Shown here in pieces: positions 34,582 to 59,828 of a stretch of DNA of 64,000 nucleotides. The notes below the pieces were generated by a model. It did no database searches and had not been told where the DNA came from. It was given only the letters and a program-made list of their open reading frames with translations. Source of the stretch: Halopiger goleimassiliensis (lineage in GTDB: Archaea > Halobacteriota > Halobacteria > Halobacteriales > Natrialbaceae). The translations under genes and the position numbers were made by a program. Location: the NCBI RefSeq assembly GCF_000455345.1, contig NZ_HG315690.1, positions 819,742-883,741 on the forward strand, in the 5' to 3' direction. Numbering within the stretch: the first letter of the stretch is position 1; every line of letters starts with the position of its first letter.

Positions 34582-36195
34582 TCACTCGAGGTACCCCAGA
34601 TCCGCGAGTCGCTGTTCGACGCCCTCGTCTTCGGTTTCGACGGAAGGAGCGTCGTCGCGGCGGGCATACGTGTCGACGCCCGGGTCGTCGACACAGGGAA
34701 GCGGGTCGCCGTCCATTCGCTCGCCGAACGGGACGTCGAGGGTCGCGAGGACGGTCGGGGCGACGTCGAAGAGGTGGGCGTCCCCGACGCCTGCCGCGTG
34801 GTCGACGGCGTCGCCGCGGGCCGCGATCGTCCCGTCGCGTTTGTGGTTCCAGGGTTCGGTCGGCGGGCCGAACTGCTCGTCCCGGAGCGTCGCCGAGAGG
34901 AAGTGATCGAAGTCGGCGGGGACCGCCACGATGTCGACTGCCCGGTCGGTCTCCGGGCCGTGGAAGTACTCCTCGCGCGGACGGACGGCCTCGAACACCG
35001 GCTCGCCGTCGGGCGTCCGGACGGACCTGAGGGCGTCGATCAGTCGCGTCCGGACCGCCTCGTACTCCTCCTGCGGGACGACGCCGTCGGGTTCGCGCCC
35101 CTCGAGGTTGATCCGGACGCCACACTCGATCCGCGAGCGGACGTAGGCCTGCGAGTCGGGGAAGTCGACCTGCTCCGCTCCCGCGTTGACCAGCCCTGCC
35201 GGCGCGTGTTTCGCGGCGACGTCGGCGAGCCCCAGCCGCTCGAGGACGGCCTCGATGCGCTGGCTCGTCAGGCCGACCCTCGCGGCGACGGCCATCGCTC
35301 TGGCAGCCGGTCCGGGGTCGTGATCGGTGGCGTCCTCGCCCGCTTTCAGGGCGTCGTCCCGGACGGTCGCCCAGGTCGGCATCCCGTCGCCGCCCTTGCG
35401 CGTCGCGACCAGCCCCTCCTGGCGCAAGAATTCGTTGACGCGAAACTCCCGGCCGTCGTAGGGACCCATCCCGTGGTCGCTGGCGACGATCACGGTGTCC
35501 GGGTCGTGTGTCTCGAGGATGGCCGCGAGCTGGCGGTCGAGTTCGCGGTAGATCGCCCGGATCGCCGCTTCGTCCTCGGGTGTCTCGTGGAAGATCGAGT
35601 CGGTCGCCTGGAACTCGACGAAGCCGAACTCGGGGTCGAATCGATCCGAGAGGTAGCGAAACGCCTCGCCGCGCATCCGAACGCAGTCCGCGTAGGCGTC
35701 GCCGAGGTCGCTCGCGTTCTCCTCCGGATAGACCCGATAGTCGCCGATGGCGTCGCGAACGTCCTCGAGCAGTCCCTCGGGGTGACAGTCGGGATCCTCC
35801 GGCGCGGTGTAGCCCGGCAGCAACGCGCCGTCGAACGGCCGCGGCGGGTGCGTGACCGGCGCGTTGACGACGACGCTCGTCAGCCCGTGTTCGTCGAGGA
35901 TCTCCCACAGCGTCGGCTCGCGAACGTCCGAGGCGTTGACCACGTCCCAGTCGTAACCGTCGAACCGCAGGAAGCCGAAGACGCCGTGTTTGCCGGGATT
36001 CTTCCCCGTGTAGAGCGAGGGCCACGCCGAGGCGGTCCACGGCGGGATCTGTGATTCGAGCGTACCGCCCGTCCCGTCGCGGTAGATCGACTCGAGCGTC
36101 GGTACCGCGTCGTCCTCGAACAGCGGAGCCAGCACCCGATCGCAGGCGGCGTCGATGCCGACCAGCAAGGTCCGGAGGGAGGAGTCGTCGTCCAT
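34582..36195 (-). CDS. Alkaline phosphatase-fold phosphodiesterase, type I
   Basis: This 537-residue protein of the alkaline phosphatase superfamily (nucleotide pyrophosphatase/phosphodiesterase branch) has metal ligands at LLVGIDAACDRVLAPL, the nucleophile region PPWTASAWPSLYTGKNPGKH (Thr), and VIVASDHGMGPYDGREF (Asp-His). QATDSIFHETPEDE and the C-terminal VAPTVLATLDVPFGERMDG also fit. Substrate might be a nucleotide sugar or a phosphodiester in a glycan or lipid; the locus ahead favours the former. A GGATAACCAAG box about 32 nt before the start belongs to the shared promoter set of this region. The protein ends RLADLGYLE, as in the 49.5-kb paralogue. Confidence 0.85.
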   Translation of the reverse strand: MDDDSSLRTLLVGIDAACDRVLAPLFEDDAVPTLESIYRDGTGGTLESQIPPWTASAWPSLYTGKNPGKHGVFGFLRFDGYDWDVVNASDVREPTLWEILDEHGLTSVVVNAPVTHPPRPFDGALLPGYTAPEDPDCHPEGLLEDVRDAIGDYRVYPEENASDLGDAYADCVRMRGEAFRYLSDRFDPEFGFVEFQATDSIFHETPEDEAAIRAIYRELDRQLAAILETHDPDTVIVASDHGMGPYDGREFRVNEFLRQEGLVATRKGGDGMPTWATVRDDALKAGEDATDHDPGPAARAMAVAARVGLTSQRIEAVLERLGLADVAAKHAPAGLVNAGAEQVDFPDSQAYVRSRIECGVRINLEGREPDGVVPQEEYEAVRTRLIDALRSVRTPDGEPVFEAVRPREEYFHGPETDRAVDIVAVPADFDHFLSATLRDEQFGPPTEPWNHKRDGTIAARGDAVDHAAGVGDAHLFDVAPTVLATLDVPFGERMDGDPLPCVDDPGVDTYARRDDAPSVETEDEGVEQRLADLGYLE

Positions 36196-36220
36196 CGTCG
36201 ACCCCTCCCACGGATCGGGC

Positions 36221-36232
36221 CTTGGTTATCCG
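36221..36232 (-). promoter_or_regulatory. Candidate promoter box of the phosphodiesterase gene
   Basis: The complement of CTTGGTTATCCG is a GGATAACCAAG element, 32 nt before the start at 36195 and similar to boxes upstream of several glycan-locus genes. Confidence 0.4.
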
Positions 36233-36392
36233 CGCGATTACCCGCCGAATCGACTCCTTTCTCGTGCCGATTCGTGGGCTCCGACGTCGCGGGCGACTCG
36301 CGGACGGACGCGACCGGCGTTCGCCGGGTGATCCGCGACGCTCCCGCTCGCGAGTAACGGACGCCTCGAGTCCCGGAGAACTGAAACGGCGC

Positions 36393-36551
36393 TTACTCCT
36401 CGGCCGGAGCGCTCCGCGGGGTGATCCACTCACGGACGCGGTCCGAGTAAGCGCCGATGCCGATGCCGGCGAGCAACGACGCGAAGCTGGGCACGAGTAT
36501 CCAGAGCAGGTCCGGGTGTTCGGAACCGGTGTGGAGTACGGTCTCGAGCAT
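36393..36551 (-). CDS. Small membrane protein, 52 residues
   Basis: This micro-protein begins MLETVLHTGSEHPDLLWILV and has one transmembrane helix (LLWILVPSFASLLAGIGIG) followed by AYSDRVREWITPRSAPAEE. I recall this design (a TEHPDLLW start with a GIG helix) as common in halobacteria. The start ATG at 36549-36551 is preferred over an upstream in-frame start because the family begins MLE-type. The function is unknown. Confidence 0.65.
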   Translation of the reverse strand: MLETVLHTGSEHPDLLWILVPSFASLLAGIGIGAYSDRVREWITPRSAPAEE

Positions 36552-36674: not shown

Positions 36675-37685
36675 TTACTTCACGCTGTCGTACACCGAGG
36701 CGATGGCCCGCATCCCCAGCGAGCCGTACTCGAGGCTGTAGTAGGTCTCGAGGTCCGGGTTGAACTTCGCCTTGTAGCGGTTGATCCGGCGGGTGTCGGC
36801 CCCGACGAGGTCGTAGACCTCGAGGCCGCGCTCGCGGCCGTCCCGCATGATCGCCCAGTCCAGCAGGTCGTTCGTCGGCACGTCGACGTCGGCCCCGGTC
36901 CGGACGCCGCCCATCCACCGGCCGATCCGGTCGCCGTACTCGAGCGCGAGGATGCCGCCGACGAACTCGCCGTCGACGCGCAGCGTGTAGGGTCTGACGG
37001 CCCCACCGACGGTCGCCTCCGCGAGGTCGCAGACGAACTCGAGGGGGACGTCGAAGTCGATTCCCTGAGACTCGTAGCGATGCCGAACCTGCTCGTGGAT
37101 CAACCCGATCTCCTCGGGGCCGCCCACCTCGATCTCGTAGGCGTCGTCGGCCGTGTTGCGGACGTTGCGACGCGCGTCGCTGCTGAACGACGCCAGCAGG
37201 TCGTCCTCCTCGCGGGTGAGGTCGACGGCGTAGGTGTACTCCGGCGTCGCCTCGAACGCGTTCCACTTGAACGGGCGCGCGTCCCGAACGCCCGGCGAGG
37301 TCCGGACGTGGCCGTAGCGCGGCCCGAGTTCCTCCTCGATCCACTCGAGACAGCCGTCGACGAACCGCTGGCGGCGTTTCTCCCGCTTGCGCTGTTTCAG
37401 CTTCCCCATGTTGCAAAACGCCGGCCCGAGATACGGCACCCGGAGGTGTGGCGGCGGGGAAAACACAGTCGTGACGAGGCGTTTGTCGATCTCGAAGACC
37501 GGGAAAATGCCAACGGGTTCCTGGCCTTTGAAGCCGACCAGCGGATGCAACGTCGCGTCGGCGTGGTCGGCCAGCACGGAAAGCGCCTCGCGTTCGTGGG
37601 GGAGCCGTCCCTGCGGCGAGCGGTCGACGTAGCCGTTCCAGCGCTCGAGGTCCTCGTCGGTCGCGCGCCGTACCTCGATGCTCAT
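36675..37685 (-). CDS. FemAB-like GNAT acyltransferase (first of two)
   Basis: This 336-residue protein of the FemAB/double-GNAT family (BioF2-like acetyltransferase domain) begins MSIEVRRATDEDLERWNGYV. The usual motifs are present: SPQGRLPHEREALSVLADHA, PLVGFKGQEPVGIFPVF, SSDARRNVRNTADDAYEIEV and the C-terminal DWAIMRDGRERGLEVYDLVG followed by NRYKAKFNPDLETYYSLEYG. Members transfer acyl or aminoacyl groups onto glycans or peptides. It shares its layout with the 51-kb protein in the same locus. Confidence 0.82.
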   Translation of the reverse strand: MSIEVRRATDEDLERWNGYVDRSPQGRLPHEREALSVLADHADATLHPLVGFKGQEPVGIFPVFEIDKRLVTTVFSPPPHLRVPYLGPAFCNMGKLKQRKREKRRQRFVDGCLEWIEEELGPRYGHVRTSPGVRDARPFKWNAFEATPEYTYAVDLTREEDDLLASFSSDARRNVRNTADDAYEIEVGGPEEIGLIHEQVRHRYESQGIDFDVPLEFVCDLAEATVGGAVRPYTLRVDGEFVGGILALEYGDRIGRWMGGVRTGADVDVPTNDLLDWAIMRDGRERGLEVYDLVGADTRRINRYKAKFNPDLETYYSLEYGSLGMRAIASVYDSVK

Positions 37686-38023
37686 TCGATCACCCCGCGC
37701 CGTGCCGGGTCGCTATCGGTCGCTCGGTGAGCCATACTCGAGCGGTCGCGCCGGGAGCACTTTGTAATCGCCTCGCTTCCGGGATGCTCCCGGGATCGAT
37801 CGGTCACAGCGGCGGTCGCGCCGGTGGCTCCCGCGACGGGAGTTGCCCCTCTACAGCCACGTCCTCCCTCGTTTTCGTCGTTTCGAGCGTACTCGGTCCC
37901 GTTCCGCCGTATTCGGGGTACAACCGCTCGACGGGAAATGCGGTCTCGCGCGATGAGACTCTCCGTTTGGTGAGTTATGGGACGGCTAACAATAGTTTCT
38001 GCCGTCGGTCCATCGGTACCCGA
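37686..38023. other. Divergent promoter region of the glycan locus
   Basis: There is no ORF worth supporting in these 338 bases. GGCTAACAATAG (37984-37995) sits about 34 nt before the DUF1616 start and resembles the other AACAA promoter boxes in the locus. Confidence 0.4.
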
Positions 38024-39061
38024 ATGAGAGAGCTACTGATCAGAACGGTCCGGCCGTTCTCGGCAGTCGGTCACGGGACGAGGGTTCTCCTCGAGCGTAC
38101 CCCGGCGGACCTGATCGGCGTCGGCGGTTTCGCCGCGCTCGCGGCAGTGCTACTGGCGGCCCTCGACGTCGCCTCGCCGGTCGTCCGCGGCGCGATCGGG
38201 TTCCCGCTACTGTTTTTCGCACCCGGATACGCCGTCGTCTCCGCGCTGTTCCCGCGCCGAACCGTCCCCCGGGACCTGCGGGCAAGCGACTCGAGCGGGG
38301 AGACCCGAACGGTGACCGACGTCGAGCGCATCGCGCTTTCGTTCGGACTGAGCGTCGCCGTCGTCCCGCTCGTGGGACTCGTGACGGCGTTCCTCTTCGG
38401 GACCGTCACCGGACCGTCCGCCGTCGGCGCGATCGCCACCGCCACCGTCGTCGGCGTCGCGCTCGCGACGGTTCGCCGAGGTCGGGTTCCCCCGGAGGAG
38501 CGGTATCGGTTCGACGCCCGGCGCAAACTCGGGACCGCCGCTCGAGCGATCTTCGACGCGCGTTCGACGCTGCACCTGGCGGTCAACCTCCTGCTGGTTT
38601 CTACCCTGATCCTCGCGTTGACGACGGTCGGCTACGCGTTCGTCGCCCCGCAGGACGGCGAGGAGTACACGAACGTACAACTGCTGAGCGAGAACGACGC
38701 CGGCGAGTACGTCGCCGGCGACTATCCGGAGACGGTCGAGTCGGGCGAGCCGCTCTCGCTCGCCGTCGGCGTCGAGAACCGGGAAGACCGGACGATGGAG
38801 TACACGCTCGTCCTCCAGGAGCAGTGGATCAGCGACGGCGACGTGATCGAGCGGACGGAACTGCAACGCACCGGGTACGCCATGAACGACGGCGAGTCGG
38901 TGACCGACGAGGTGTCCGTCACGCCCGCAGCCGAGTCGGGCACCGTCCGAATCGCCGCGCTGCTGTACGCCGACGACGTCCCCGAGACGCCGACGCTCGA
39001 GAACGCCGACGAACGCGCCTACGTCTGGACCGAAATCGTCGACGAGGTCGGCGGCGAGTGA
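38024..39061 (+). CDS. DUF1616 membrane protein
   Basis: This 345-residue protein has about four membrane segments in the N-terminal half (IGVGGFAALAAVLLAALDVA, GFPLLFFAPGYAVVSALFPR, FGLSVAVVPLVGLVTAFLFG and VNLLLVSTLILALTTVGYAF). The FPLLFFAPGYA motif is diagnostic of DUF1616. An extracellular beta-sandwich domain follows (PETVESGEPLSLAVGVENRE, EYTLVLQEQWI), like those in cell-envelope proteins. DUF1616 genes regularly occur in archaeal surface-glycan clusters. The start ATG is at 38024. Confidence 0.83.
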   Translation: MRELLIRTVRPFSAVGHGTRVLLERTPADLIGVGGFAALAAVLLAALDVASPVVRGAIGFPLLFFAPGYAVVSALFPRRTVPRDLRASDSSGETRTVTDVERIALSFGLSVAVVPLVGLVTAFLFGTVTGPSAVGAIATATVVGVALATVRRGRVPPEERYRFDARRKLGTAARAIFDARSTLHLAVNLLLVSTLILALTTVGYAFVAPQDGEEYTNVQLLSENDAGEYVAGDYPETVESGEPLSLAVGVENREDRTMEYTLVLQEQWISDGDVIERTELQRTGYAMNDGESVTDEVSVTPAAESGTVRIAALLYADDVPETPTLENADERAYVWTEIVDEVGGE

Positions 39062-39210: not shown

Positions 39211-41025
39211 ATGTCATCGCACTCAGCGACTACGACGTCGGCGTTCGACGGCCACCTCGCATCCAAGTTCGCACTCGCCTGTGGCTTTCTCGCCATCGCG
39301 CTGGCCGCGCTCGCCGCTCGATCCGCACCGGCGACCGGCTACGAGGTGTCGATCTTCGCGTCGACGCCGACGCCCGTCTGGGCCGGTATCGGGGTCGCCC
39401 TCTTCGTGGCGGTCTTCGCCGCGCTGACCGCGACGACCGATCGGGGCGTTCGCGGCTGTGCGCTCGCGCTCGGCGGCCTCGCGACGGTCCTGTTCGCCGG
39501 ACTGCCGCTCGTTCGAAACTACCTCTACTACGGCTATCACGACGCGTTGACCCACCTCGGCTGGGCGCGCGCCCTCGAGCAGGGGTCGATCCTCCCGTTC
39601 GACCTCACCTATCCCGGCATCCACACGACCGGCGTGTACATCGGCTCCGTCCTCGAGATTCCGATCGCTCGCGCGATGGTGTTCGTGACGGTCGTCGCGG
39701 CGCTGTTGTTCTTCGTCTTCGTGCCGCTGTCCGTCCGTGCGATCGTCCCCGACGCCCGGGCGACGGCCCTCGCGGCGTTCGGTGCCTTCCTCCTCCTGCC
39801 GATCACGACCATCGCGACGCATCACCACCCGCACGCGATGACCCAGGCGATCATGTTCTCGGCGGCCTTCGTCTACGTCCTCACCCGGTACCTCCGGTCG
39901 GATCCCGCGGAAAACGGCACCGCGTTTGGGGCCGCGCTGGCGCTCGCGTCGGTCGCAGCCGTCGTCTTCCACCCGCAACTCGTGGCCCACCTGCTCGCCG
40001 TCGCCGTCGGCATCTGTCTCGTCCAGTTTCTCGCCCGCCGGTTCAAATCGGAGGGGGCCGTCACCCGGCACCGAACCCTCTACGGCCATACGCTGTTTCT
40101 GTTCGCCGTCTTCCTCCTGTGGACGGCGAACAACACCTTCTACTTCGACACGGTGGAGTACATCGCCAGTCGCGCCCTCGAGTTCGTCCTCGGTGTCGGC
40201 GAGGCCGGCGCGTCGATCGGTGCCCAGGGGGCGTCGCTGAGCGAGATCGGGGTCAGTATGGCGGAGATCTTCGCCAAACTGTTCGGTCCCCACCTCGTGC
40301 TGTCGGTGCTCGCCGCAGGCCTGCTCGCCGGCGTGCTCGTCGGCGTCCGGACGCGATACGACCACCTTCCGGCGATGGCGACCTACTACGGGGTCGGCCT
40401 CGTTGCCCTCGGAACGTTGTTCGTCGTCTACTTCGTCGCCTCCGGATCGGAGATTTATTTCCGCGTTCTCGGGCTCATGATGGTGTTCGTCGTGATCCTC
40501 GGCTCGATCGCCATCTCGCTCGGCTACGACGCCCTCTCGAGTCGGATTCCGTCCACGGTGGCCGGGTCGGTCGTCGGCCTGACCGTGCTCGCGTTGCTCG
40601 TGATGTCGCTGCTCGCGGTGTTCCCGTCGCCGTACATTTATCACGCGTCACCGCACGTCACGGAGACGACCGCCTCCGGGTACGAGACGGCGTTCGCCGC
40701 CCAGGACGACGACGTCGAGATGGTCGGGTTCCGCGGGACGACGAACCGGTTCGACGACGCGATCCACGGCAACGAAGAACGGATGCGCGCCCACGGTAGC
40801 GTCTCGGAGGAGACCTTCGACGAGGGACTGACGGAGTACTACGACGAGGATCGGTATCTGATCGTCACGGAGGCCGACTACCAGCGGGAGCAGGTAGCGT
40901 ACCAAGAACTCCGGTACGGCGACGGCGAGATCGAGGCGGCGACGAGCCAACCCGGCGTCAGTCGAGTCCTGTCCAACGACGAGTTCGAACTGTACTACGT
41001 TCACGCCGAGGGGACGTTCGCGTGA
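39211..41025 (+). CDS. Multi-pass membrane protein, probable GT-C type glycan enzyme
   Basis: This 604-residue protein has around twelve hydrophobic segments and a C-terminal soluble domain of about 130 residues (from FPSPYIYHASPHVTETTAS). The first luminal loop after the second or third helix carries YGYHDALTHLGWARALEQG and is followed by DLTYPGIHTTGVYIGSVLE, an arrangement like GT-C transferases that use polyprenyl-linked sugars. THHHPHAMTQAIMF is another loop. No definite catalytic motif is seen. Its position between DUF1616 and a flippase gene supports a glycan-assembly role. Confidence 0.72.
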   Translation: MSSHSATTTSAFDGHLASKFALACGFLAIALAALAARSAPATGYEVSIFASTPTPVWAGIGVALFVAVFAALTATTDRGVRGCALALGGLATVLFAGLPLVRNYLYYGYHDALTHLGWARALEQGSILPFDLTYPGIHTTGVYIGSVLEIPIARAMVFVTVVAALLFFVFVPLSVRAIVPDARATALAAFGAFLLLPITTIATHHHPHAMTQAIMFSAAFVYVLTRYLRSDPAENGTAFGAALALASVAAVVFHPQLVAHLLAVAVGICLVQFLARRFKSEGAVTRHRTLYGHTLFLFAVFLLWTANNTFYFDTVEYIASRALEFVLGVGEAGASIGAQGASLSEIGVSMAEIFAKLFGPHLVLSVLAAGLLAGVLVGVRTRYDHLPAMATYYGVGLVALGTLFVVYFVASGSEIYFRVLGLMMVFVVILGSIAISLGYDALSSRIPSTVAGSVVGLTVLALLVMSLLAVFPSPYIYHASPHVTETTASGYETAFAAQDDDVEMVGFRGTTNRFDDAIHGNEERMRAHGSVSEETFDEGLTEYYDEDRYLIVTEADYQREQVAYQELRYGDGEIEAATSQPGVSRVLSNDEFELYYVHAEGTFA

Positions 41026-41113: not shown

Positions 41114-41266
41114 ATGGATACGGAAGGGAGCCCGGTAGCCGAATACGACGGTACCGCGACCGCGTCGACTGACCACACCGTCTCCTCGAGCACGCGATTC
41201 GATCGTCGGATCGTCGAACGGACACGAACCGAGACCGCGGTGTTCCGCGCAACTAATGTCGAGTAA
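41114..41266 (+). CDS. Possible small leader ORF overlapping the flippase start
   Basis: This is a 50-codon ORF: MDTEGSPVAEYDGTATASTD through RFDRRIVERTRTETAVFRAT to NVE. It begins at the ATG spaced correctly for a leaderless transcript from the box at 41078 and runs 11 nt into the flippase gene in another frame. No recognised family. It could couple translation to the flippase, or simply be an untranslated leader. Confidence 0.35.
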   Translation: MDTEGSPVAEYDGTATASTDHTVSSSTRFDRRIVERTRTETAVFRATNVE

Positions 41267-42809
41267 CGAACAGGAACTCTCGGCGTTGCTCTCGAGTGCG
41301 GCGCTGGTGATGGTCGGCGGAATTGCGAGTTCGCTCGCCAACCTGGGTGAGCGCGTCGTCGTCGGGCGGCTGCTGTCGCCGGATGCGTACGGTGAGGTGA
41401 GCGTCGGGCTCGCGTTACTGACCTTCACGCTGATGATCGCGCTCGCGGGCTGTGAACAGGGGGTCTCCCGATTCATTCCCCGGTACGAGTCAGACGAGGA
41501 TCAGCGAGGCGTCTGGGTGAGCGGGCTCGTCGTCACGATCTCGCTGTCGGTGGTGTTCGGCGCGGCCCTGTTCGCCGCCGCGAGTCCGATCGCAACTCGG
41601 TTGTTCGAGACCGAGGAGGCCGTAACGTTCGTCCGATTGATAGCCGTCTCGATACCGTTTATCGCTGCGTTCCGGATCGCCGTCGCGGTGATTCGCGGCT
41701 ACGAGAACACGGTCTACAAGACGGTCGTCCAGAGCTTCCTCGATCCACTGTTGCGGATCGGCTCCATCGCGGTACTGTTACTCGCTGGGGTCGGCATCGT
41801 CGCCGTCGGCTGGGCGTACCTGCTTGCCGCGGTCGTGACGTTCGTCGTCGCTCACGTCCTCCTCGGTCGGCTGATGGCCCTCCGCGGTGGGTATCGGACC
41901 CACGTCAGGGAGCTACTCGCGTTCTCCGCGCCGCTCGTCGTCTCGACCGTTATCGGGACCATGCTGGCCCGAACGGACACGCTCATGCTCGGGTACTTTC
42001 GCAGTTCGTACGAGGTCGGCATGTACGACGCCGCGTATCCGATCGCAGCCGGGCTGACGATCGTCCTCTCCGCGTTCGGCTTCCTCTACCTGCCGATCGC
42101 GTCCCGTCTCGAAGCGGACGGCGATCGGGAGGTCGTCGACGACATCTACGCGACGTCGACGAAGTGGGTGTACATCATCACGTTCCCCGCGTTCCTCCTG
42201 CTGGTCGTCTTCCCGGAGGACGTTATCGCGCTCGTGTTCAGTCCCTCGTATACGGACGCCGCTACAGTGTTGCCCGTCCTCGCCATCGGCTTCTTTTTGA
42301 GCGCGACGGCGGGTCGCGACAGGGAGACGCTGTCCGCAGTGGGTGCGACCACCTGGATCGCAGTCGCGAACGGCGTCGGGTTGGCGCTCAACGTGCTCGT
42401 CAACCTCGTGCTCATCCCCCAATACGGCTTTATGGGTGCTGGCGTCACCTCCCTGCTCTCGCTTATCGTCGTCCACGGAATCATCTGTGGCGTTCTCGCG
42501 ATCCAGTACGGTATCACCCCGCTCTCTCGAGAGGCAGTTCGGTGTTACGTCGCCCTCCCGGTGGTGTTCGTACCGCTGACTGGAGCCCTCTCGCCCTGGA
42601 TCTCCATCACTCCGGTGACGCTCCTCCCCTTCCTCGTCGTCGTCGGCCTGCTGTCGATCGTCGTCACCGGGCTCGCCGGCGGCCTCGAGCCCGACGACGT
42701 CGTCGTGGTCGACGTCGTCGAGGACCACACCGGCATCTCACTGTCACCGATCCGCCGATGGATTCCGGATTCAGAGGGGGAGCCGACGGACTCCCTTTCG
42801 GCCGACTGA
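41256..42809 (+). CDS. Wzx-type oligosaccharide flippase
   Basis: This 517-residue MOP-superfamily flippase has about fourteen hydrophobic segments. SAALVMVGGIASSLANLGER with VVVGRLLSPDAYGEVSVGLA opens it, FRIAVAVIRGYENTVYKTVV and LMLGYFRSSYEVGMYDAAYP follow, and VLPVLAIGFFLSATAGRDRE and NLVLIPQYGFMGAGVTSLLS close the transport domain. These are typical of RfbX/AglR proteins that move lipid-linked oligosaccharide across the membrane. The C-terminal tail is acidic. It is the export step of the surface-glycan pathway in this locus. Confidence 0.9.
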   Translation: MSSNEQELSALLSSAALVMVGGIASSLANLGERVVVGRLLSPDAYGEVSVGLALLTFTLMIALAGCEQGVSRFIPRYESDEDQRGVWVSGLVVTISLSVVFGAALFAAASPIATRLFETEEAVTFVRLIAVSIPFIAAFRIAVAVIRGYENTVYKTVVQSFLDPLLRIGSIAVLLLAGVGIVAVGWAYLLAAVVTFVVAHVLLGRLMALRGGYRTHVRELLAFSAPLVVSTVIGTMLARTDTLMLGYFRSSYEVGMYDAAYPIAAGLTIVLSAFGFLYLPIASRLEADGDREVVDDIYATSTKWVYIITFPAFLLLVVFPEDVIALVFSPSYTDAATVLPVLAIGFFLSATAGRDRETLSAVGATTWIAVANGVGLALNVLVNLVLIPQYGFMGAGVTSLLSLIVVHGIICGVLAIQYGITPLSREAVRCYVALPVVFVPLTGALSPWISITPVTLLPFLVVVGLLSIVVTGLAGGLEPDDVVVVDVVEDHTGISLSPIRRWIPDSEGEPTDSLSAD

Positions 42810-50670: not shown

Positions 50671-50765
50671 CGGATCGACGCCGGTTCGGGTGTCGCTTCT
50701 GGGACCCCGACGACGGTGTCACTCCGAACGGCACCTATTTGATTTCAGCAATCCAACTGCTTCGT

Positions 50766-51146
50766 ATGACGGCGTCGGAGACGGACGGTTCGAGCATCGG
50801 TTCCCGTAACTGGAAACTGGCGATCTTCGGGGTCGCCCACGTACTGGTCGGAATCGGCTTCTTTTACGGCCTCGTGACAGATTCGATAACGCTGCTCACG
50901 GCCGTGCTGGTCGGCGTTCTCGGATTTGTCCTGCTCTCGCTGGCCATCGTCGTCCGACGCGAGGGGCTTATCACGCCCGAAAACAAGCTCATCGGCGGTT
51001 TCGTGCTGGTCGCGATAGTGCTTCTCTTCGGTCTCGAGACGATCACTGACCTCCCGTCGGAGGTCGTCTTCGGGATCGTGTTCGTCGTCGGCGTCGTCCT
51101 CCCGCACCTGGTGCTCGAGTACACGGATTACGGACAGCTAGTGTGA
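50766..51146 (+). CDS. Small four-helix membrane protein
   Basis: This 126-residue membrane protein starts MTASETDGSSIGSRNWKLAI. Its hydrophobic segments are IFGVAHVLVGIGFFYGLVTD, LLTAVLVGVLGFVLLSLAIV, LIGGFVLVAIVLLFGLETIT and VVFGIVFVVGVVLPHLVLEY. The start at 50766 is preferred because upstream residues read as a basic, non-membrane extension. The function is unknown; its place suggests an envelope role. Confidence 0.65.
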   Translation: MTASETDGSSIGSRNWKLAIFGVAHVLVGIGFFYGLVTDSITLLTAVLVGVLGFVLLSLAIVVRREGLITPENKLIGGFVLVAIVLLFGLETITDLPSEVVFGIVFVVGVVLPHLVLEYTDYGQLV

Positions 51147-51196: not shown

Positions 51197-52216
51197 TCAC
51201 TTCAACGATCCGGCCATCCGCTGATACACCGTCTTCGCGACCGTCATCTCCGGCCCCGAGGATTCGACGACGTAGTACGGCCGGAGTTCGCCGTTGAACT
51301 TGCCTTTGTACTCACAGAGCCGTTCCGTGTTCGCGCCGACGAGGTCGTACCCCGTCACGGACTCGAGTTCGGGATCGGTGACGACGTCCTCGAGGATCGC
51401 TCGATGCAGGAGGTTGTTGACGCTGACGTTGTCGTAGGAGGCGGTGACGCCGCCCTGCCAGTAGTAGGCCAGGTCGTTCGAAATCAGCGTGATGATGCCG
51501 CTCTCGTACTCGCCGTCGGGGGTACGCGCGACGTAGACCCGCCAGCGGTCGTCGTCGAGATTCGAGAGGAGATTGCGGAGGAACTGCCGCGACATCGGGG
51601 CCTCCTCGCCGAACTCAGCGTACTGCTCGACGACGTCGTCGTAGATCCGCAGCGCCGCGCCGATCCCCTCGGTGTCGATCTCGAGGTCGACCTGGTCGTA
51701 GCGGCGCATCTCGTTGCGAAGGCTCTTGGAGAAGCCCATCATCGCGTCGTCGACGTCCTCGGCGTCCGCGAGGTCGACGACGTAGGTAAACTCCGGTTCG
51801 ACGCTGCAGTCGTTCCAGGTATAGGGGCGCGGATCGTCGTACCCCAGCGGACACGTCATCCGGAACAGCGTCGACCGCCGGCCGACCTCGAGGTCCTCGA
51901 GGACGCCCTCCGCGAGGGCCGCGTTGATGCGTTCCGCCTTCCGGCGCTTCGGACTGTTCGGGTCGAGAATCGGTCCCAGGCGGGGCACGCCCAGCGACAG
52001 CGGTGGCGAGAAGACGGTCCGCCCGACGGCCCGGTCCGCGACGAAGACCGGCAGCAGGCCGACCGTCTGCTGTCCCTTGAACGCCCCGTAGAGCCGTAAC
52101 TCGGCGTCGGTGTGCGACTCGAGGACGGCCAGGGCGTCCGGATCGTGGAACACCTCGACGCCCCGATCGGGGAGCGCGTCTCCCCATTCCGTGAGATCCA
52201 ACCGTTCGACGTCCAT
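51197..52216 (-). CDS. FemAB-like GNAT acyltransferase (second of two)
   Basis: This 339-residue FemAB-type protein shares with the 36.7-kb copy the segments FHDPDALAVLESHTDAELRL, GAFKGQQTVGLLPVFVADR, FSKSLRNEMRRYDQVDLEI and the terminal YDLVGANTERLCEYKGKFNG followed by LRPYYVVESSGPEMT. Two such genes in one locus suggest sequential acylation or aminoacylation of a glycan or peptide. The promoter box CCGATAACAAAG (complement of 52243-52254) is 32 nt upstream. Confidence 0.82.
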   Translation of the reverse strand: MDVERLDLTEWGDALPDRGVEVFHDPDALAVLESHTDAELRLYGAFKGQQTVGLLPVFVADRAVGRTVFSPPLSLGVPRLGPILDPNSPKRRKAERINAALAEGVLEDLEVGRRSTLFRMTCPLGYDDPRPYTWNDCSVEPEFTYVVDLADAEDVDDAMMGFSKSLRNEMRRYDQVDLEIDTEGIGAALRIYDDVVEQYAEFGEEAPMSRQFLRNLLSNLDDDRWRVYVARTPDGEYESGIITLISNDLAYYWQGGVTASYDNVSVNNLLHRAILEDVVTDPELESVTGYDLVGANTERLCEYKGKFNGELRPYYVVESSGPEMTVAKTVYQRMAGSLK

Positions 52217-52351: not shown

Positions 52352-53575
52352 TCAGCCCTCGAGCGTCGCCAGGATCCGCCACCAGTCCTCGCTCGCCCGG
52401 TCCATCGAAGCCGTGTCGCGAACTCCCGTCGCCTCCGCTGCGAGCGCCTCCCGGAAGTCGGTATCATCGAGACAGCGGGCCATCGCCGCAGCGTACGTCT
52501 CGGGGTCCCGATCGGGGACGACGATACCGTTCTCGCCGTCGGTGACGACGTCCTCGATCGAGCCGACAGCGGGAACGATCGCCGGCAGGCCAGTGGCCAT
52601 CGCCTCGAGCATCACCAGCGGCATCGCGTCCCGTCTCGAGGTGAGGACGAACAGCCGCGAGCGGCGGTAGTAGGCCGCCGGTTCGTCCACCCAGCCCGGC
52701 AGGTCGACCCGATCCTCGAGGTCGCGGGTGGCGAGTTCGTCCGCGACGTCCTCCCGAAGGGGGCCGTCCCCCACCATGACCGCGCTGAACTCGGTCCGGC
52801 GCTCCGCGAGGGCCTCGAGCGCGTCGACGAACCGCAGCGGGTCCTTCTCGGCGCTGAACCGGCCGACCCAGACGAGGTCGTACTCGGGGGAGACGTCCGC
52901 GGCGGGCCGGTAGGTGTCGACGTCGATGGCGTTGGTGAGCCGTTCGATCCGATCCGGCGGGACGCCGTAGCGGACCAGCTGTTCGGCGTGAGCCGATCCC
53001 GGAACCGACACGGCGTCGAATCGCCTGAACGCCCACCGTGGGATCGGGCCGTACCACTGGTGGACGTGGTGATCGAGATCGATCCCGATGATCCCCAGGT
53101 GAGCCGGGTAGCCGTAGACGGCCTTGCAAACCAGCGCGTAGAGGCCGTACGGGAACAGCGAGATCGACGCGACAGCGTCGTACTCGTTGCGATACCCTTC
53201 GTAGAGGGCGACCACGAGCAGCATCGCGATCCGGAGGATTCGCGGACCGACGTCCGGGACGGGGACGGCTCGCGCCCCCTCGAGGTCGGGATCGGGGTCG
53301 AGACAGACCAGCGTCGTCCGGCCGGCGACGTCGGCCAGCGGGCCGTAGTGGCGCTCGTTCTTGTGAGCCAGCCCCGAGACGACGAGGACGCGTTTCTCGT
53401 CGGCTCGAGCGGCCGGCGACCCCTCGAGCCAGTCGTCGCCTTCGGTTTCCTCGGCGGGGGACTCGTCTCGGGATCGGGTCGTCGAATCGTCCTCCGGCCG
53501 GGTCGTCGATTCGTCCCCTGAACTGGCTCCGGCGGGATCGATCGAGCCCGATCGGTCGGTCCCGGCCTCGCTCAT
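52352..53575 (-). CDS. GT4-family glycosyltransferase
   Basis: This 407-residue retaining glycosyltransferase has a disordered acidic N-terminus (about 70 residues) and a GT-B fold. KRVLVVSGLAHKNERHYGPL starts the first domain, VPGSAHAEQLVRYGVPPDR leads to LTNAIDVDTYRPA, then YDLVWVGRFSAEKDPLRFVD, FSAVMVGDGPLREDVADELA and the donor-binding LVMLEAMATGLPAIVPAVG. The ATG overlaps the stop of the preceding gene by four bases (ATGA), so the pair is co-expressed. Confidence 0.9.
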   Translation of the reverse strand: MSEAGTDRSGSIDPAGASSGDESTTRPEDDSTTRSRDESPAEETEGDDWLEGSPAARADEKRVLVVSGLAHKNERHYGPLADVAGRTTLVCLDPDPDLEGARAVPVPDVGPRILRIAMLLVVALYEGYRNEYDAVASISLFPYGLYALVCKAVYGYPAHLGIIGIDLDHHVHQWYGPIPRWAFRRFDAVSVPGSAHAEQLVRYGVPPDRIERLTNAIDVDTYRPAADVSPEYDLVWVGRFSAEKDPLRFVDALEALAERRTEFSAVMVGDGPLREDVADELATRDLEDRVDLPGWVDEPAAYYRRSRLFVLTSRRDAMPLVMLEAMATGLPAIVPAVGSIEDVVTDGENGIVVPDRDPETYAAAMARCLDDTDFREALAAEATGVRDTASMDRASEDWWRILATLEG

Positions 53576-54909
53576 AGCGAGTGCGGGCTCGAGGGGCCGC
53601 CGGTAGCGGCGTCGGCGTCGGTCGCGGCGAGGAGGTACTCCGACGTCGCGTAGCTCATCCAGGCCTGGCACCACCGCATCAGCGTCACGCGCTTGGTGTG
53701 GAAGCGGTATTTCCGGTAGTAGAACCGGCCGTCTTCGACCTGGAGGTTGGCCAGCACCCAGCGGAGGATGCGTTCGGCCATCTCGAGGTCGCCCTCGCGG
53801 GTGAACACCAGGATGCCCTGCGTGCTGGCGTGGATGTCCCGCGGGTAGGCGCTGGTTTCGTCGAAGTTCGGCGCGCCGTCGAGTTCGAACAGGTCGTTCC
53901 GGTAGAACTCGAGGGCGTCAGAGAGCGTGTCGGCGTAGCGATCCGAGCCGACGAGATCGCGGTAGCGCTGGAAGGACTCGATGACGAAGCCGTTGTGGTG
54001 GCTGTCCATCGAGAGGTGGGAGGCGTCGGCCGGGAGCCGGTAGGGCCAGCCGCCGACGTCGGTCTGGTTGGCCGCGATGTGATCGAGGACCTTCGTCGCG
54101 CGCTCGCGGTACTCCTCGTCGCCGAAGTGGTCGTAGAGGTCGACGAGCATCCCCGCGCCCAGCGCGGCGGCGTTGATCGTATAGGCGTCGTCGGGGTGGT
54201 TGAGGTGGTAGTCGACCTTCGCTCCCTCGTCGACCTCCCGGTAGTTGAGGTCCTCGACGAGGAAGTCGGCGGCCGTCCGCGCGATCTCGGCATAGCGGTC
54301 GTCGAGGTGTGAGGCCTGGAGCAAGGCCCTGACCGCGTAGGTCGTCGAGACGATGTCCGGATCGCTGGGCTCACCCTTCGTGTGGAGGTGCTGGATCTCG
54401 TGGCGATGCCCGCCGCAGAAGCCGCTGTAGCCCTCGATGCGTTCCTCGAGCAGCCAGTCGGCCAGGTAGCGGGCCTCCTCGACCGGATCGAACGCCGGTT
54501 CGTCGATCGCGAGGTCGAGCGACTCGAGATCCACGTCGGCCCGTCCCCTGTCGGTTCCGTCACCCTCGGCCGTCGCCGCCCGCCGGGCCAGTTCGTGGTA
54601 GTTCAGGTTGGCCATCGTGAACAGCGCCGCGCCCTTGTAGTTGCGACGGTGCTCGACGCGGAACAGCGGCCGAACGTCGACGGGCGCACGCTTGACGACC
54701 TCCTGAACGACGAGGTTCACGAACCGGTTCTCGACGGGTAGTGCCTGGAGTAGCTGACTGCTCATCCCGTCGCCGTAGTCGGGGCCGCTGTACTCCCGGG
54801 TCCGGGCGTACTCGAGCGTCGAATCGAGAACGGGGAGATACCGCTCGAGTTCCGGCGACGGTTCCGCCACGGCGGTCTCGTCGGTGTCTGGAACGCCTCG
54901 TGACTGCAT
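53572..54909 (-). CDS. Alpha/alpha-toroid family protein, possible glycan-active enzyme
   Basis: This 445-residue protein is built of helical repeats typical of (alpha/alpha)6 barrels, such as epimerases and lyases. FCGGHRHEIQHLHTKGEPSD, TTYAVRALLQASHLDDRYAE, YTINAAALGAGMLVDLYDHF, GGWPYRLPADASHLSMDSHH and RKYRFHTKRVTLMRWCQAWM look like family-conserved patches lined with His, Tyr and Trp. I recall similar halobacterial proteins mislabelled as antibiotic transporters. No export signal is present. The start is set at the ATG at 54907-54909 (MQSRGVPDTDE). GGATACCAATG about 31 nt upstream is a promoter box. It is probably linked to the overlapping GT4 gene. Confidence 0.72.
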   Translation of the reverse strand: MQSRGVPDTDETAVAEPSPELERYLPVLDSTLEYARTREYSGPDYGDGMSSQLLQALPVENRFVNLVVQEVVKRAPVDVRPLFRVEHRRNYKGAALFTMANLNYHELARRAATAEGDGTDRGRADVDLESLDLAIDEPAFDPVEEARYLADWLLEERIEGYSGFCGGHRHEIQHLHTKGEPSDPDIVSTTYAVRALLQASHLDDRYAEIARTAADFLVEDLNYREVDEGAKVDYHLNHPDDAYTINAAALGAGMLVDLYDHFGDEEYRERATKVLDHIAANQTDVGGWPYRLPADASHLSMDSHHNGFVIESFQRYRDLVGSDRYADTLSDALEFYRNDLFELDGAPNFDETSAYPRDIHASTQGILVFTREGDLEMAERILRWVLANLQVEDGRFYYRKYRFHTKRVTLMRWCQAWMSYATSEYLLAATDADAATGGPSSPHSL

Positions 54910-55080: not shown

Positions 55081-56214
55081 ATGACCGACTCGTCCATGAA
55101 CTACCTGTTTTTTACGAACACGCCGGCACACGTCCACCTGTACAAACACGCCGTCAGACGGTTACGCGAGCGGGGCCACGACGTCTGCGTCCTCGCCAGG
55201 GACTACACCTGCACGGTGGAGTTGCTCGAGTGGTACGACCTCCCCTACGAGGTCTACGGGGGGTGTGACACCTCGAAGGGGTCGCTGCTGAGTCGGCTCC
55301 CCGCCCACTACGTGCGGGCGATCCGGTACGCCCGGCGGTTCGATCCGGACCTGATCTTCGGAATGGGGGGTTATGCGGCCCACACCGGCGCGGCGGTCCG
55401 TGCGCCGACGGTCCTGCTGATCGACTCGGAGCCGGCGTCGTTCGATCACACGATCTCGACGCCCTTCGCCCGGACGATCCTCACGCCCAACACGTTCCGC
55501 AAGGACCTCGGTGAGAACCACTACGTCTTCCCCGGACTCAAGGAGTGTGCGTACCTCCATCCCGACGTCTACGAGCCGGATCCCTCGGTGCGGGACCGAC
55601 TCGGTCTCGAGCGCGACGAGCCGTTCGTCGTCCTCCGGCTGAACGCCTTCGGTTCGCAACACGACGTCGGCGAGCGGGGGATCTCCGGCGAGTGGCGACG
55701 ACGCATCGTCGAACGCCTCGCCGAGGACGCGACGGTACTGGTCTCCGACGAGGGCGGCGATACCGATCTCTCCGCGTTGCCCGCCGAACCGTTCGACCTC
55801 CACCCGGCGCTGATGCACGACGTCCTCTCCGAGGCGAGCCTGCTGGTCGCCGACACCCAGACGATGGTCACCGAGGCCGCCCTGCTCGGAACGCCCGCGA
55901 TCCGATCGAACTCCTTCGTCGGCGACGACGACATGGGCAACTTCGTCGCCCTCGAGAACCAGGGCCTGATCCGCAACGTCGAGTCCCCCGCAGCCATCCT
56001 CGAGACGGCGACGGACCTGCTCGCTCGCGACGACCTCGAGGAGGAGTGGCAGCGCCGCCGCGAGCAGTTCCTCGCGGACAAGGCGAACCTCACCGAACTC
56101 GTCCTCGACGTCGCCGAGTCTCGCGGCCGAGTCGACGACCTCGACGTACTCGAGGGGTACGGGCGCACGACGGAGCCGCAACCGGCGAGTGCGGTCGGCG
56201 TGGGAAGCGATTGA
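55081..56214 (+). CDS. DUF354 family protein (GT-B/epimerase-like)
   Basis: This 377-residue DUF354 protein has a fold related to UDP-N-acetylglucosamine 2-epimerase. YLFFTNTPAHVHLYKHAVRR opens the N-terminal domain. DLIFGMGGYAAHTGAAVRAP, TVLLIDSEPASFDHTISTPF, VFPGLKECAYLHPDVYEPDP and the C-terminal VADTQTMVTEAALLGTPAIR (acceptor of the diphosphate) are family landmarks. DUF354 genes occur in archaeal glycan loci, and nucleotide-sugar processing is the expected role. It is followed by a region with a probable decayed gene. Confidence 0.87.
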   Translation: MTDSSMNYLFFTNTPAHVHLYKHAVRRLRERGHDVCVLARDYTCTVELLEWYDLPYEVYGGCDTSKGSLLSRLPAHYVRAIRYARRFDPDLIFGMGGYAAHTGAAVRAPTVLLIDSEPASFDHTISTPFARTILTPNTFRKDLGENHYVFPGLKECAYLHPDVYEPDPSVRDRLGLERDEPFVVLRLNAFGSQHDVGERGISGEWRRRIVERLAEDATVLVSDEGGDTDLSALPAEPFDLHPALMHDVLSEASLLVADTQTMVTEAALLGTPAIRSNSFVGDDDMGNFVALENQGLIRNVESPAAILETATDLLARDDLEEEWQRRREQFLADKANLTELVLDVAESRGRVDDLDVLEGYGRTTEPQPASAVGVGSD

Positions 56215-56654: not shown

Positions 56655-57986
56655 CTATCGACTACGTCTCGCCAGCGCCAGGGCGGTCAGTAAGAGCGCG
56701 CCGATCGAGACGATCGCCGCGAAGCCGGACATCGGTAACGCGGCGCTGTCCTCGTCGGTTCCTCCGGCGTCGGGCGCTGGCGCGACGGTCAGCGCCTCGA
56801 GCGAGTCTACCTCGGCCTCGTACCGATAGCTGGTGCCGGGCTCCTCGACGAGCGTCGTGTCGGCGGGGGTCCATTCGCCGTCTTCGGCCGCGTAGAGTGC
56901 GACTTCGTCTGCCTCGTAGCCGACGTCGTCGACCCAGTCGCTCTCGACGGTGAACGTGACCGTCGCCGACGCCGACGTCGCGTCGGTGTCGATCGTGAGA
57001 GACGCCGGCGGATCGACGTCCTCGTACGGCGACGCGGGGAGGTCGGCCGGTCGGTCGTGGGACACCGTCAGCGTCGCCGTCCCGTCGATGCCGGTCAGCT
57101 CGAGGGCGTCGATGCTCGCGTTGTCGCTCGAGCCGACCCCTGGCTGGACGGAGACGACGTCGTCGGGTGAGGCACCGGCGATTCCGATCGCCGTCCCGCC
57201 CTCGTACCGATCGTAGGTGATCGAGGGGTCGTCACAGGTGCCGGTCCGGATCGTCACGGGTTCCGCGAGGTCGAGCGACTGGCGGTTCGGCGCGTCTTCG
57301 TCGCCCGAGAGGAACTCCCAGTCCTCGATTTCGCCGTCCTCGTACCACTCGAGGTCGTCCAGCATCTCGTCCCCGTGGAAGTCCGACGCCTCGTTGAATC
57401 CCGGCTGGATCGTCACGGCGAACTCGCCGTCGAGCCCGCCGTTGATCGCGCCGCCGTCGGTGCGACCCTCGCGCCAGAGCCAGGAGGCGTAGGCCCAGTC
57501 GCCCTCGCGGTCCCACTCGACCACGTTGCTCGGGGCGTCGTAGCGGTCGTCCTGGACGGTCCACTCGGCTTCCGCCGGCAAGCCGACGATATCGAACGTG
57601 ACCATCCCGCCGGTTGATCCCTCCTCGAACCGGTCGTGGACCATCACGAGACTCGTGCCGTCGGTTCCCTCGTGGAGCATGAGGGCGCTCGTGTTCTCCT
57701 CCTGGAGGTGGGTCGTCCCGTAAGAACTGTAGAGTCGTTCCTCGTCGGGCAGGTCCGGATGGGTCTCGTGATTGCGGTAGTCGTAGAACGACTCGACGGT
57801 CCCGTCGGTCTCGAGTGGTTCGACGGCGCGACACATCTCGCCCTGTTCGACCACGTAGGAGTCGGGCGTCGACTGGGCCGGGTTCGCACTCACGGCGTCG
57901 GCCACCCCGAGCGGAGCCACGCCGACCAGCGCACCGGTCACGAACAGCGCGACGATCGCACAGGCTCGTAGCGTGCCGCGGCTCAT
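56655..57986 (-). CDS. Secreted protein with a C-terminal membrane anchor
   Basis: This 443-residue protein has a Sec-like signal (CAIVALFVTGALVGVAPLG) and a large beta-rich exterior. It contains VEQGEMCRAVEPLETDGTVE, WAYASWLWREGRTDGGAINGG, AVTIQPGFNEASDFHGDEM and later TIRTGTCDDPSITYDRYEGG, with possible disulfide cysteines. The C-terminus MSGFAAIVSIGALLLTALAL followed by ARRSR resembles an archaeosortase (PGF-CTERM) signal in length and charge, but the tripeptide is SGF. It overlaps the deacetylase gene by four bases, so they act together on the surface. The function is unknown. Confidence 0.75.
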   Translation of the reverse strand: MSRGTLRACAIVALFVTGALVGVAPLGVADAVSANPAQSTPDSYVVEQGEMCRAVEPLETDGTVESFYDYRNHETHPDLPDEERLYSSYGTTHLQEENTSALMLHEGTDGTSLVMVHDRFEEGSTGGMVTFDIVGLPAEAEWTVQDDRYDAPSNVVEWDREGDWAYASWLWREGRTDGGAINGGLDGEFAVTIQPGFNEASDFHGDEMLDDLEWYEDGEIEDWEFLSGDEDAPNRQSLDLAEPVTIRTGTCDDPSITYDRYEGGTAIGIAGASPDDVVSVQPGVGSSDNASIDALELTGIDGTATLTVSHDRPADLPASPYEDVDPPASLTIDTDATSASATVTFTVESDWVDDVGYEADEVALYAAEDGEWTPADTTLVEEPGTSYRYEAEVDSLEALTVAPAPDAGGTDEDSAALPMSGFAAIVSIGALLLTALALARRSR

Positions 57987-59044
57987 CCGTCGTTCACCAC
58001 CGCCGGGGGTCGCGGGTTACGGGTCGCCCCCTCCCCGGCCGTCGGTTCGGGGTCCGTTCGCGCCGGCTCGAGGCCGGTCGCCGTCGATTCGACGTCCGCC
58101 CCGGACGCTTCGTCGGCTGGGTTCCCTTCCTCGCCCGTGCTCTTCTCGAGAGCCAGTTCGTCGTACAGGTCGCCCGGCGTGCCGATCCACGCCCCGAGGT
58201 CGCGGGCGCGCTGGACGAACCAGCGGTACAGCTCGCGATGGCCCGGGAACTCCCGCTCGTTGAACAGCCGCGGGTGCCACAGCACCGTCATCACCGCGTC
58301 GTTGGCCGCGGCCTCCTCGAGCACCGACTCGCAGGTGCGACGCGCGGCGACCGGGTTCGCGCCGGGATCGGGCAGCGCCTGATCCATGATCGTCAGCGGG
58401 AAGACGACGAACTCGTCGTCGAACGGCCGCAGCGGCCGATAGCCGTGCTGGAAGCCACACTCGGTCGCCGACCCCAGGCTCGTATCGTACGAGAGGCCGA
58501 TCCGCCGGTAGTGACGCCACGTTTCGGGCCGCTCGAGTCGGAGGTGGTGCTGTCGCCCGCCCCGGATCGGGCCGTCGAGGATCTCCTCGAGGACGGCCCG
58601 CTCCTCGCGCAGTCGTTCGGGGTCGTCCGCCGTGTGGTACGAGCCGTGGAGGCCGACCTCCCAGCCGCCGGCCTCGAGATCGCGAAGTACCGACGCGACG
58701 TCCTCGGCCGTCGGATCGTACCGACCCAGATGCTGGATCCAGTTCTCGGACGAGAGCCACTCCCGGACCGGCCGATCGGCCAGCAGGTGCTGTTCGTTGA
58801 GGACGTAAAAGGCCGATCGAACGCCGAGGTCCGACTCGAGGGCCATCAGTTCCTCGAACTGCCAGTAGGGGTTCGCGGACGACAGGGCCGTCGAGAGGTG
58901 ATAGGCCGGTCGTTCCTGCGTGGCGTAAAACAGCGAACGGAGCCCCTTGTACGGCCGGTCGACGTCGTGGGTGAGACAGAGCGCGAACGTGGCGTCGTCG
59001 GGGAGGCCGTCGACGCGGGTTGGAGGGCGGTTCGTATCACTCAT
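57983..59044 (-). CDS. NodB-like polysaccharide deacetylase family protein
   Basis: This 353-residue protein of the carbohydrate esterase 4/NodB type has FALCLTHDVDRPYKGLRSLF (metal-binding Asp-Val-Asp), GWEVGLHGSYHTADDPERLR (His-x3-His ligands), RRIGLSYDTSLGSATECGF and VMTVLWHPRLFNEREFPGH. The C-terminal 60 residues are low-complexity acidic. It has no signal peptide. Members deacetylate N-acetyl sugars. The ATG start (MSDTNRPP) was chosen; the codon immediately before it is a GTG in frame. The stop overlaps the next gene (ATGA). Confidence 0.83.
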   Translation of the reverse strand: MSDTNRPPTRVDGLPDDATFALCLTHDVDRPYKGLRSLFYATQERPAYHLSTALSSANPYWQFEELMALESDLGVRSAFYVLNEQHLLADRPVREWLSSENWIQHLGRYDPTAEDVASVLRDLEAGGWEVGLHGSYHTADDPERLREERAVLEEILDGPIRGGRQHHLRLERPETWRHYRRIGLSYDTSLGSATECGFQHGYRPLRPFDDEFVVFPLTIMDQALPDPGANPVAARRTCESVLEEAAANDAVMTVLWHPRLFNEREFPGHRELYRWFVQRARDLGAWIGTPGDLYDELALEKSTGEEGNPADEASGADVESTATGLEPARTDPEPTAGEGATRNPRPPAVVNDG

Positions 59045-59195
59045 CACAGGATCACGCTCACGCGAACCGATACGATAGTAAATGACGACATTATCAACTG
59101 CCGACGTGCTGGGCCGCGCGTCGTCCGGGCTAGGTATCGGTTACCCGTCGCTGATCGTCTGGAAGCGGGTCGTTACCACGCGGAGTCTCCGTACC

Positions 59196-59828
59196 CTATC
59201 GTCGCTTTCCCACGTCGTTCCACGACCGCCGTCCCGCGTCTACCAGCGCGAACAGGAGGCGTTTCACGCCTACGAGACACTCCCGGAGCACGGGTGCACC
59301 GTCGGCGAGCCAGACCAGCGCCGCCGCTCCGGCGAGTCCGACCTGAATCCACAGGTAGGTCGAGGGCTCCCCGGTGAGAAACTCCTGGTGGTAGTTCTCG
59401 AACAGCCGCCAGAATTCGTCGGCGAAGGCGGTGTGGTCCGCGGGCGACTCGATCCGCCGCACTGGCCACAGCACCAGCGAGACGTAAATGGTTCCGTCGC
59501 CGCGGACGGCAGCGTCGAGGACGTCACCCGGCAGATGTAACAGGTAGCCGACTCCGAAGGCCAATCCCGCTCGAGTCCGTCCGACGCGTCTCGCTACGAG
59601 GCCGACGACGATCGACAGCGGCACGGCGACGAAGATCGAGTGGCCGAGCGCGTAGCCGGACTCGAAGACGCCGAACTCCCAGGCCAGGGGTTTGTCGATG
59701 ACGTCGGGCAACACCGACGCGACGACGACCGTCAGCGCCTCGAGGCCGCCCGGCGGCTCCCGGTAGACGAGCCGCACGAACAGCGAGTACGCGAGGTAGC
59801 CGACGATGGCGTGTTCCCACGGCCACAT
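59196..59828 (-). CDS. YdjM-like membrane-bound metal-dependent hydrolase
   Basis: This 210-residue protein of the YdjM/YbcI family has metal-type residues spread across its helices: WPWEHAIVGYLAYSLFVRLV, VVASVLPDVIDKPLAWEFGV, SGYALGHSIFVAVPLSIVVG and GVGYLLHLPGDVLDA (His and Asp). Four to five membrane segments are visible. Such proteins may act as phospholipid or undecaprenyl-phosphate-type hydrolases, but this is not established. The CATAACTATCC box (59853-59865, minus strand) lies about 30 nt upstream. Confidence 0.82.
   Translation of the reverse strand: MWPWEHAIVGYLAYSLFVRLVYREPPGGLEALTVVVASVLPDVIDKPLAWEFGVFESGYALGHSIFVAVPLSIVVGLVARRVGRTRAGLAFGVGYLLHLPGDVLDAAVRGDGTIYVSLVLWPVRRIESPADHTAFADEFWRLFENYHQEFLTGEPSTYLWIQVGLAGAAALVWLADGAPVLRECLVGVKRLLFALVDAGRRSWNDVGKRR

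Follow-up and report, generated by a model that had tools for sequence, protein, structure and literature searches.

Bacterial O-antigen and capsule loci are laid out as conserved flanks around a swappable center, and in the Wzx/Wzy loci a flippase, glycosyltransferases, and tailoring enzymes lie between these flanks. Among the haloarchaea, Halobacterium salinarum is known to sulfate its glycans, and Zaretsky and colleagues identified VNG1056C and VNG1057C, which are annotated as sulfatase-resembling members of the alkaline phosphatase (AP) superfamily and lie beside glycosyltransferases in the aglB cluster, as the sulfotransferases Agl30 and Agl31, on the evidence of deletion and of expression in Haloferax volcanii (PMC11980604). 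A cluster of Haloarcula hispanica whose product is an acidic exopolysaccharide (HAH_1661-1667) also combines glycosyltransferases with a polysaccharide biosynthesis protein and an arylsulfatase-like gene (PMC5467301). Here we describe genes A to R (positions 34582 to 59828) of a 64,000-nucleotide stretch of Halopiger goleimassiliensis DNA, hereafter the window (G000:C1:819742-883741, contig NZ_HG315690.1, of a 3.9-Mb genome). This is a surface-polysaccharide biosynthesis locus that is built like the bacterial O-antigen and capsule loci and is separate from the aglB-anchored agl clusters. We favor, with fair confidence, a capsule-like locus in which three AP-fold proteins, A, F, and I, are transferases that decorate a lipid-linked glycan; from their sequence features, they are probably cytosolic sulfotransferases.

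Genes A to R were called by haloarchaeal codon and charge bias and then checked against Pfam and NCBIfam. The gene list of an earlier sequence-only reading of this DNA was borne out throughout, by position and, except for G, by Pfam and NCBIfam matches: two phosphodiesterase-fold proteins (A and I), a sulfatase-fold protein (F), two FemAB-like proteins (B and L), a flippase (E), GT61 and GT4 glycosyltransferases (H and M), an epimerase (J), a DUF354 protein (O), a deacetylase (Q), and an exported protein (G). A and I are distant paralogues of each other, as had been proposed (26% identity over 563 columns, E = 8e-31). The cluster additionally holds C (DUF1616), D (11 transmembrane segments), N (a predicted toroid), and P (PGF domain), which were not on that list.

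Conserved flanks and a variable center

The locus was compared with regions of about 36 kb around gene N from 20 genomes and with a region of genome G016, giving 21 oriented loci; the compared rows are related, and hence the statistics describe a pattern rather than independent trials. Both flanks, A-B-C-D on the left and L-M-N-O-P-Q on the right, were found in 17 to 21 of the 21 genomes with median identities of 48 to 78%, and the flank genes mostly kept their order and strands across these genomes, which span many genera. At an identity of at least 35%, the center genes were far sparser (E, 6/21; F, 3/21; H, 3/21; I, 9/21; J, 1/21; K, 0/21), with G intermediate (14/21, median 41%). When the anchor N and G were excluded, 169 of 189 gene-genome cells were occupied in the flanks versus 22 of 126 in the center. 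Distance from the anchor cannot explain this contrast, since the left flank is conserved despite being farther away than the center. Of 121 genomes sampled from the same family, N was strongly matched in 44, representing 17 of 29 genera, with two further weak matches.

The 17 genomes with a boundable center, this one counted, held 85 center genes in 28 families, 14 of which were singletons. Nearly every center had a flippase, in many cases from a different lineage, together with an exported protein of the G type, while the optional cargo of the other centers included ATP-grasp, GT4, polysaccharide deacetylase, GFO/IDH, and Asn-synthase-like genes. The ATP-grasp gene (e.g., L026:8264-9481), found in 6 of 17 centers and absent from this locus, may decorate the glycan with amino acids or amides. 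Unlike the bacterial Wzx/Wzy loci, the Halopiger locus has an archaeal gene set with AP-fold, PGF, and DUF1616 proteins, and no Wzz/Wza-type exporter was seen in it; flippase E is present, and D is a candidate polymerase. The Haloarcula hispanica cluster is much smaller, and the part of its description consulted mentions no conserved flanks, FemAB pair, or PF01663 genes (PMC5467301).

The sequence-only reading had proposed a comparison with known agl clusters, and this comparison set the locus apart from them: the window contains no aglB, and the aglB gene of this genome lies at C1:2444082, about 1.6 Mb away. Compared with the Halobacterium aglB cluster (PMC11980604), the locus likewise has LGY-ended AP-fold proteins (see below) but differs by having no aglB and by its PF01663 members, FemAB pairs, and variable center, and the activity of its AP-fold proteins is predicted. 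It could nevertheless be argued that the product of the locus is an N-linked S-layer glycan made through an agl pathway, with the oligosaccharyltransferase encoded elsewhere. An aglB is present in this genome, P is likely a surface protein, and the same enzyme classes adjoin aglB in another genome, G006 (L145, G006:C10:281901-301800), where a run of AP-fold genes, mostly PF01663-like, lies within about 15 kb of aglB; all members of this run end in LGYLE, and one is 59% identical to A. However, the distance to aglB, the possibility that D is a dedicated polymerase or transferase, and a conserved-flank, variable-center layout that is typical of polysaccharide loci speak against this, and we regard the N-linked alternative as rather unlikely. 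This alternative bears on where the glycan ends up, and A, F, and I could be transferases under it as well.

AP-fold proteins and their C-terminal tails

A (34582 to 36195, complementary strand; left flank; 17 of 21 loci, median 77% identity) and I (47961 to 49562, forward strand; variable center; 9 of 21) match PF01663 with E values of 3e-34 and 3e-43, and F (43016 to 44218, forward strand; variable center; 3 of 21) matches PF00884 (E = 3e-15). None of the three has a transmembrane segment or a signal, and they are therefore probably cytosolic. The nucleophile region of A (PPWTASAWPSLYTG) and the Thr nucleophile region of I (PPTTPTAWPTIATG) are each accompanied by an SDHG metal motif, and motif spacing assigns a Thr to the NPP nucleophile position in both. 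In F, the corresponding sequence is CTPQA, with Thr51 aligned to the nucleophile position, and there is no CxPxR motif. Thr or Ser, not Cys, occupies this column in 9 of 9 F relatives, and the Arg of the formylglycine motif is absent; thus, F is not a formylglycine sulfatase. The predicted fold of F (mean pLDDT, 62) matched sulfatases and the YejM/PbgA group (Foldseek, E about 1e-8), including 6hhm, which is reported as the structure closest to Agl31 (PMC11980604); its last block has a pLDDT of 36, and the tail is not confidently placed. The sulfatase call on F thus holds for the fold, by PF00884 and Foldseek, and fails for the identity, given the missing formylglycine motif. Similarly, "phosphodiesterase" describes A and I as a fold name only.

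The three proteins end in RLADLGYLE (A), RLRGLGYME (I), and HLEQLGYR (F). The tail of A (34585 to 34620, complementary strand; VEQRLADLGYLE) has its last four residues invariant in 18 orthologues, and the linker before it falls to 0.38 identity in these 18 sequences; for I (tail at 49524 to 49559, forward strand; VEDRLRGLGYME), the linker falls to 0.21 to 0.25 and the tail stands at 0.9. The tail of F, HLEQLGYR, occupies 44192 to 44215 on the forward strand. Elsewhere in the locus, conservation drops toward the protein ends (to 0.06 in N), with the exception of O, in which a conserved VGVGxD end follows a degenerate stretch in nearly all orthologues and is possibly another short docking motif.

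The occurrence of the tail was counted with AP-fold genes found by profiles built without the last 25 residues, and the tail was scored as [LM]GYx0-3 at the protein end. Within the glycan loci fetched by that point, it was present on 49 of 53 AP-fold genes versus 3 of 715 others; one of these three (L036), with the AP motif DHG, probably has the AP fold as well, and some of the tail-less AP-fold genes look split or frame-broken (L034 and L015). In genome G038 (L034:5650-6887), one AP-fold gene appears split across two overlapping frames, possibly through assembly error or decay. Over all fetched loci, the tail was found on none of 16 formylglycine-type proteins versus 97 of the 105 remaining AP-fold proteins, and a smaller hand-read set agreed that tail and formylglycine motif are mutually exclusive. 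Carried on a flexible linker, the LGY tail probably serves as a docking peptide by which the enzymes are brought to a common partner. A literature search of partial coverage, and hence weak as evidence of novelty, found no report of an LGY motif in AP-fold enzymes.

The same tail occurs on the characterized sulfotransferases. The published cloning primers (PMC11980604) encode the ends HLEDLGYL for Agl30, which is accompanied by the soluble Agl31 with LEELGYT, and a primer for VNG1063H encodes KELGYIE; the sections consulted contain no comparison of C termini. This tail is also found on aglB-proximal AP-fold genes of three other genomes, as it is on three AP-fold genes on a glycan contig of the Hbt. 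salinarum type strain (L136, DSM 3754 contig C17). The latter could not be equated with Agl30 and Agl31, as the published primers were unmatched at up to 4 mismatches; by this mismatch to the VNG1056, VNG1057, and VNG1063 primers, the DSM 3754 glycan cluster seems to differ from that of NRC-1. The presence of the same tail on proven transferases is what chiefly leads us to assign A, F, and I to the transferases, an assignment that draws on shared class features rather than on orthology to VNG1056C and VNG1057C.

Probable transferred group and its donor

The sequence-only reading had suggested that the polymer carries phosphodiester, sulfate, or acyl decorations. Charged decorations of a surface glycan are supported, with sulfate favored by the class features of the AP-fold proteins, whereas the sulfatase identity is not. 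Sulfate addition is a better reading than phosphodiester cleavage because the tail and, wherever it was readable, the Thr/Ser nucleophile are shared with a class of which the two characterized members are sulfotransferases. The proteins might instead be true hydrolases, such as nucleotide-sugar pyrophosphatases, phosphodiesterases, or sulfatases, with a cytosolic role in precursor trimming or in the recycling of intermediates, as is suggested by the family names PF01663 and PF00884 and by PDB matches, albeit weak, to NPP and phosphonoacetate hydrolase. Nonetheless, F lacks the formylglycine motif that sulfatases require, and the tail class excludes formylglycine enzymes and includes proven transferases, which makes hydrolysis quite improbable.

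A stronger case can be made that the AP-fold proteins transfer phosphate-linked groups, e.g., glycerol-phosphate or phosphoethanolamine-like groups, or rearrange phosphodiesters, yielding a teichoic acid-like polymer, with sulfation confined to the sulfatase-like subfamily. In A and I, which are PF01663 members, the Thr and metal-site motifs are intact, F also matched phosphoethanolamine transferases in NCBIfam and PDB searches, and the best argument for A and I moving phosphate groups is that neither ATP sulfurylase nor a true adenosine 5'-phosphosulfate (APS) kinase, the canonical enzymes forming 3'-phosphoadenosine 5'-phosphosulfate (PAPS), was found by Pfam search. On the other hand, enzymes of the LtaS/EptA type are membrane anchored and act outside the cell, whereas A, F, and I have no transmembrane segment or signal, and the characterized LGY-tail carriers known here are sulfotransferases only. 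We therefore consider phosphate transfer unlikely, though less so than hydrolysis.

Several points weigh against A, F, and I being sulfotransferases of a capsule-like locus. ATP sulfurylase (PF01747) was found in none of nine genomes, this one and Hbt. salinarum DSM 3754 among them, in a search that did not cover the CysND type, and APS kinase (PF01583) gave only weak P-loop matches in this genome and DSM 3754, a divergent kinase not having been searched for. Agl30 and Agl31 enter the sequence comparison by their primer-encoded ends only, and A and I, as PF01663 proteins, belong to another Pfam subfamily than the sulfatase-like Agl30 and Agl31 and may transfer something else. The models of F and N are of modest confidence, all 21 comparison genomes were chosen for carrying N, and the core glycan does without F and I, which are optional among the relatives. 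The APS kinase matches above the family cutoff proved on reading to be FtsY or SRP54 P-loops or another small kinase. The lead that follows for a sulfate-transferring reading is that either PAPS is made by unrecognized enzymes or the AP-fold transferases use another donor.

Other genes and a proposed pathway

Protein N (53572 to 54909, complementary strand; right flank) is predicted to be an alpha-helical (alpha/alpha) toroid with a remote GH76 or 2-epimerase (AGE) fold. A model built from sixteen orthologues was all-helical (mean pLDDT, 59; pTM, 0.69), and its best PDB matches were GH76 mannanases, a GH88 protein, and 2-epimerases, with TMq values of 0.38 to 0.47 for the GH76 and cellobiose 2-epimerase matches. 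Agl32, an archaeal D-glucuronyl C5-epimerase, likewise has an all-helical fold closest to 2-epimerases (PMC13308652), and the predicted toroid of N may be of the same fold class. Unlike Agl32, whose homologues sit in aglB islands, N had no profile match in the aglB islands of five genomes, and its paralogues (46 to 51%) lie in other loci only. Identification of N as Agl32 is thus without support in aglB islands, and for a pectate lyase or GH76 enzyme, the sequence matches were weak and the similarity at fold level only. The modeled fold of N would fit either an epimerase or a glycoside hydrolase.

The FemAB-like proteins B (36675 to 37685, complementary strand; left flank; PF13480) and L (51197 to 52216, complementary strand; right flank; PF13480/FemAB-like; 20 of 21) are 37% identical, and each has a median identity of 78% across loci. 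B is paired with A, and the two genes are adjacent in most loci. Amino acid transfer, which the sequence-only reading had raised, may be one possibility for B and L. A second glycan region of the same genome (L037-L038, G000:C1:484000-523800) has paralogues of I (53%), D (35%), and G, together with an A-B pair (58% to A and 50% to B).

In the left flank, C (37727 to 39061, forward strand; 18 of 21, 50%) is a DUF1616 membrane protein whose true start is probably internal, and D (39211 to 41025, forward strand; 18 of 21, 50%) joins 11 transmembrane segments to a C-terminal soluble part with a weak DUF6541 match, making it a candidate polymerase or GT-C enzyme. The center holds, besides F and I, the MOP-family flippase E (41256 to 42809, forward strand; PF01943), the GT61 protein H (46573 to 47742, complementary strand; PF04577), the NAD-dependent epimerase/dehydratase J (49705 to 50670, forward strand; PF01370), and K (50646 to 51146, forward strand), a small protein with four transmembrane segments that was seen in this locus alone. 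G (44542 to 46566, forward strand), which starts with a Tat-type twin-arginine sequence and has repeated C-terminal modules, evolves fast; its homologues range from about 560 to 845 amino acids, with two copies in some loci. No Pfam family covers 44542 to 46566, and the label "beta-helix" rests on inspection by eye. The right flank comprises the GT4 glycosyltransferase M (52352 to 53674, complementary strand; 18 of 21), probably starting downstream of its open reading frame start; the GT-B-like O (55081 to 56214, forward strand; 21 of 21, 76%), with DUF354 just above the cutoff; P (56655 to 57986, complementary strand; 20 of 21), a probable archaeosortase substrate with a PGF-pre-PGF domain, a signal, and a C-terminal transmembrane segment; and the polysaccharide deacetylase Q (57983 to 59047, complementary strand; 19 of 21, 69%), which matches NCBIfam VimE (E = 1e-18) below the VimE cutoff. 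The YdjM-like membrane protein R (59196 to 59828, complementary strand; 12 of 21) is often at the locus edge. An Rfam search of the window returned a tRNA-Glu as the sole match.

In the pathway that we propose, M and O would assemble the lipid-linked core of the glycan within the cell, aided by N and Q, and the cassette genes, here H, J, F, and I, would customize it. A, F, and I, as enzymes of the same class as Agl30 and Agl31, would carry a group on a metal-bound Thr and pass it to a hydroxyl of the sugar before the glycan is flipped; this group is most likely sulfate, with phosphate or a phosphodiester less likely. Flippase E would then export the glycan, D with C would polymerize or transfer it, and the exported G may process or bind it. 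More broadly, and only tentatively, haloarchaea may hold a large class of cytosolic PF00884 and PF01663 transferases with a Thr/Ser nucleophile and an LGY docking tail, which would sulfate glycans through a covalent intermediate and a donor other than classical PAPS and whose genes would be shuffled in serotype-like cassettes.

The absence of the formylglycine motif together with the LGY tail gives a simple rule by which AP-fold transferases likely to build glycans can be told from true sulfatases by sequence, and many such proteins are now annotated as sulfatases or phosphodiesterases. This extends the 2025 finding on Agl30 and Agl31 to dozens of loci and makes both the tail and the sulfate donor testable. 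Archaeal surface glycans may, like bacterial capsules, diversify by the swapping of cassettes, a matter of relevance to virus recognition and salt adaptation.

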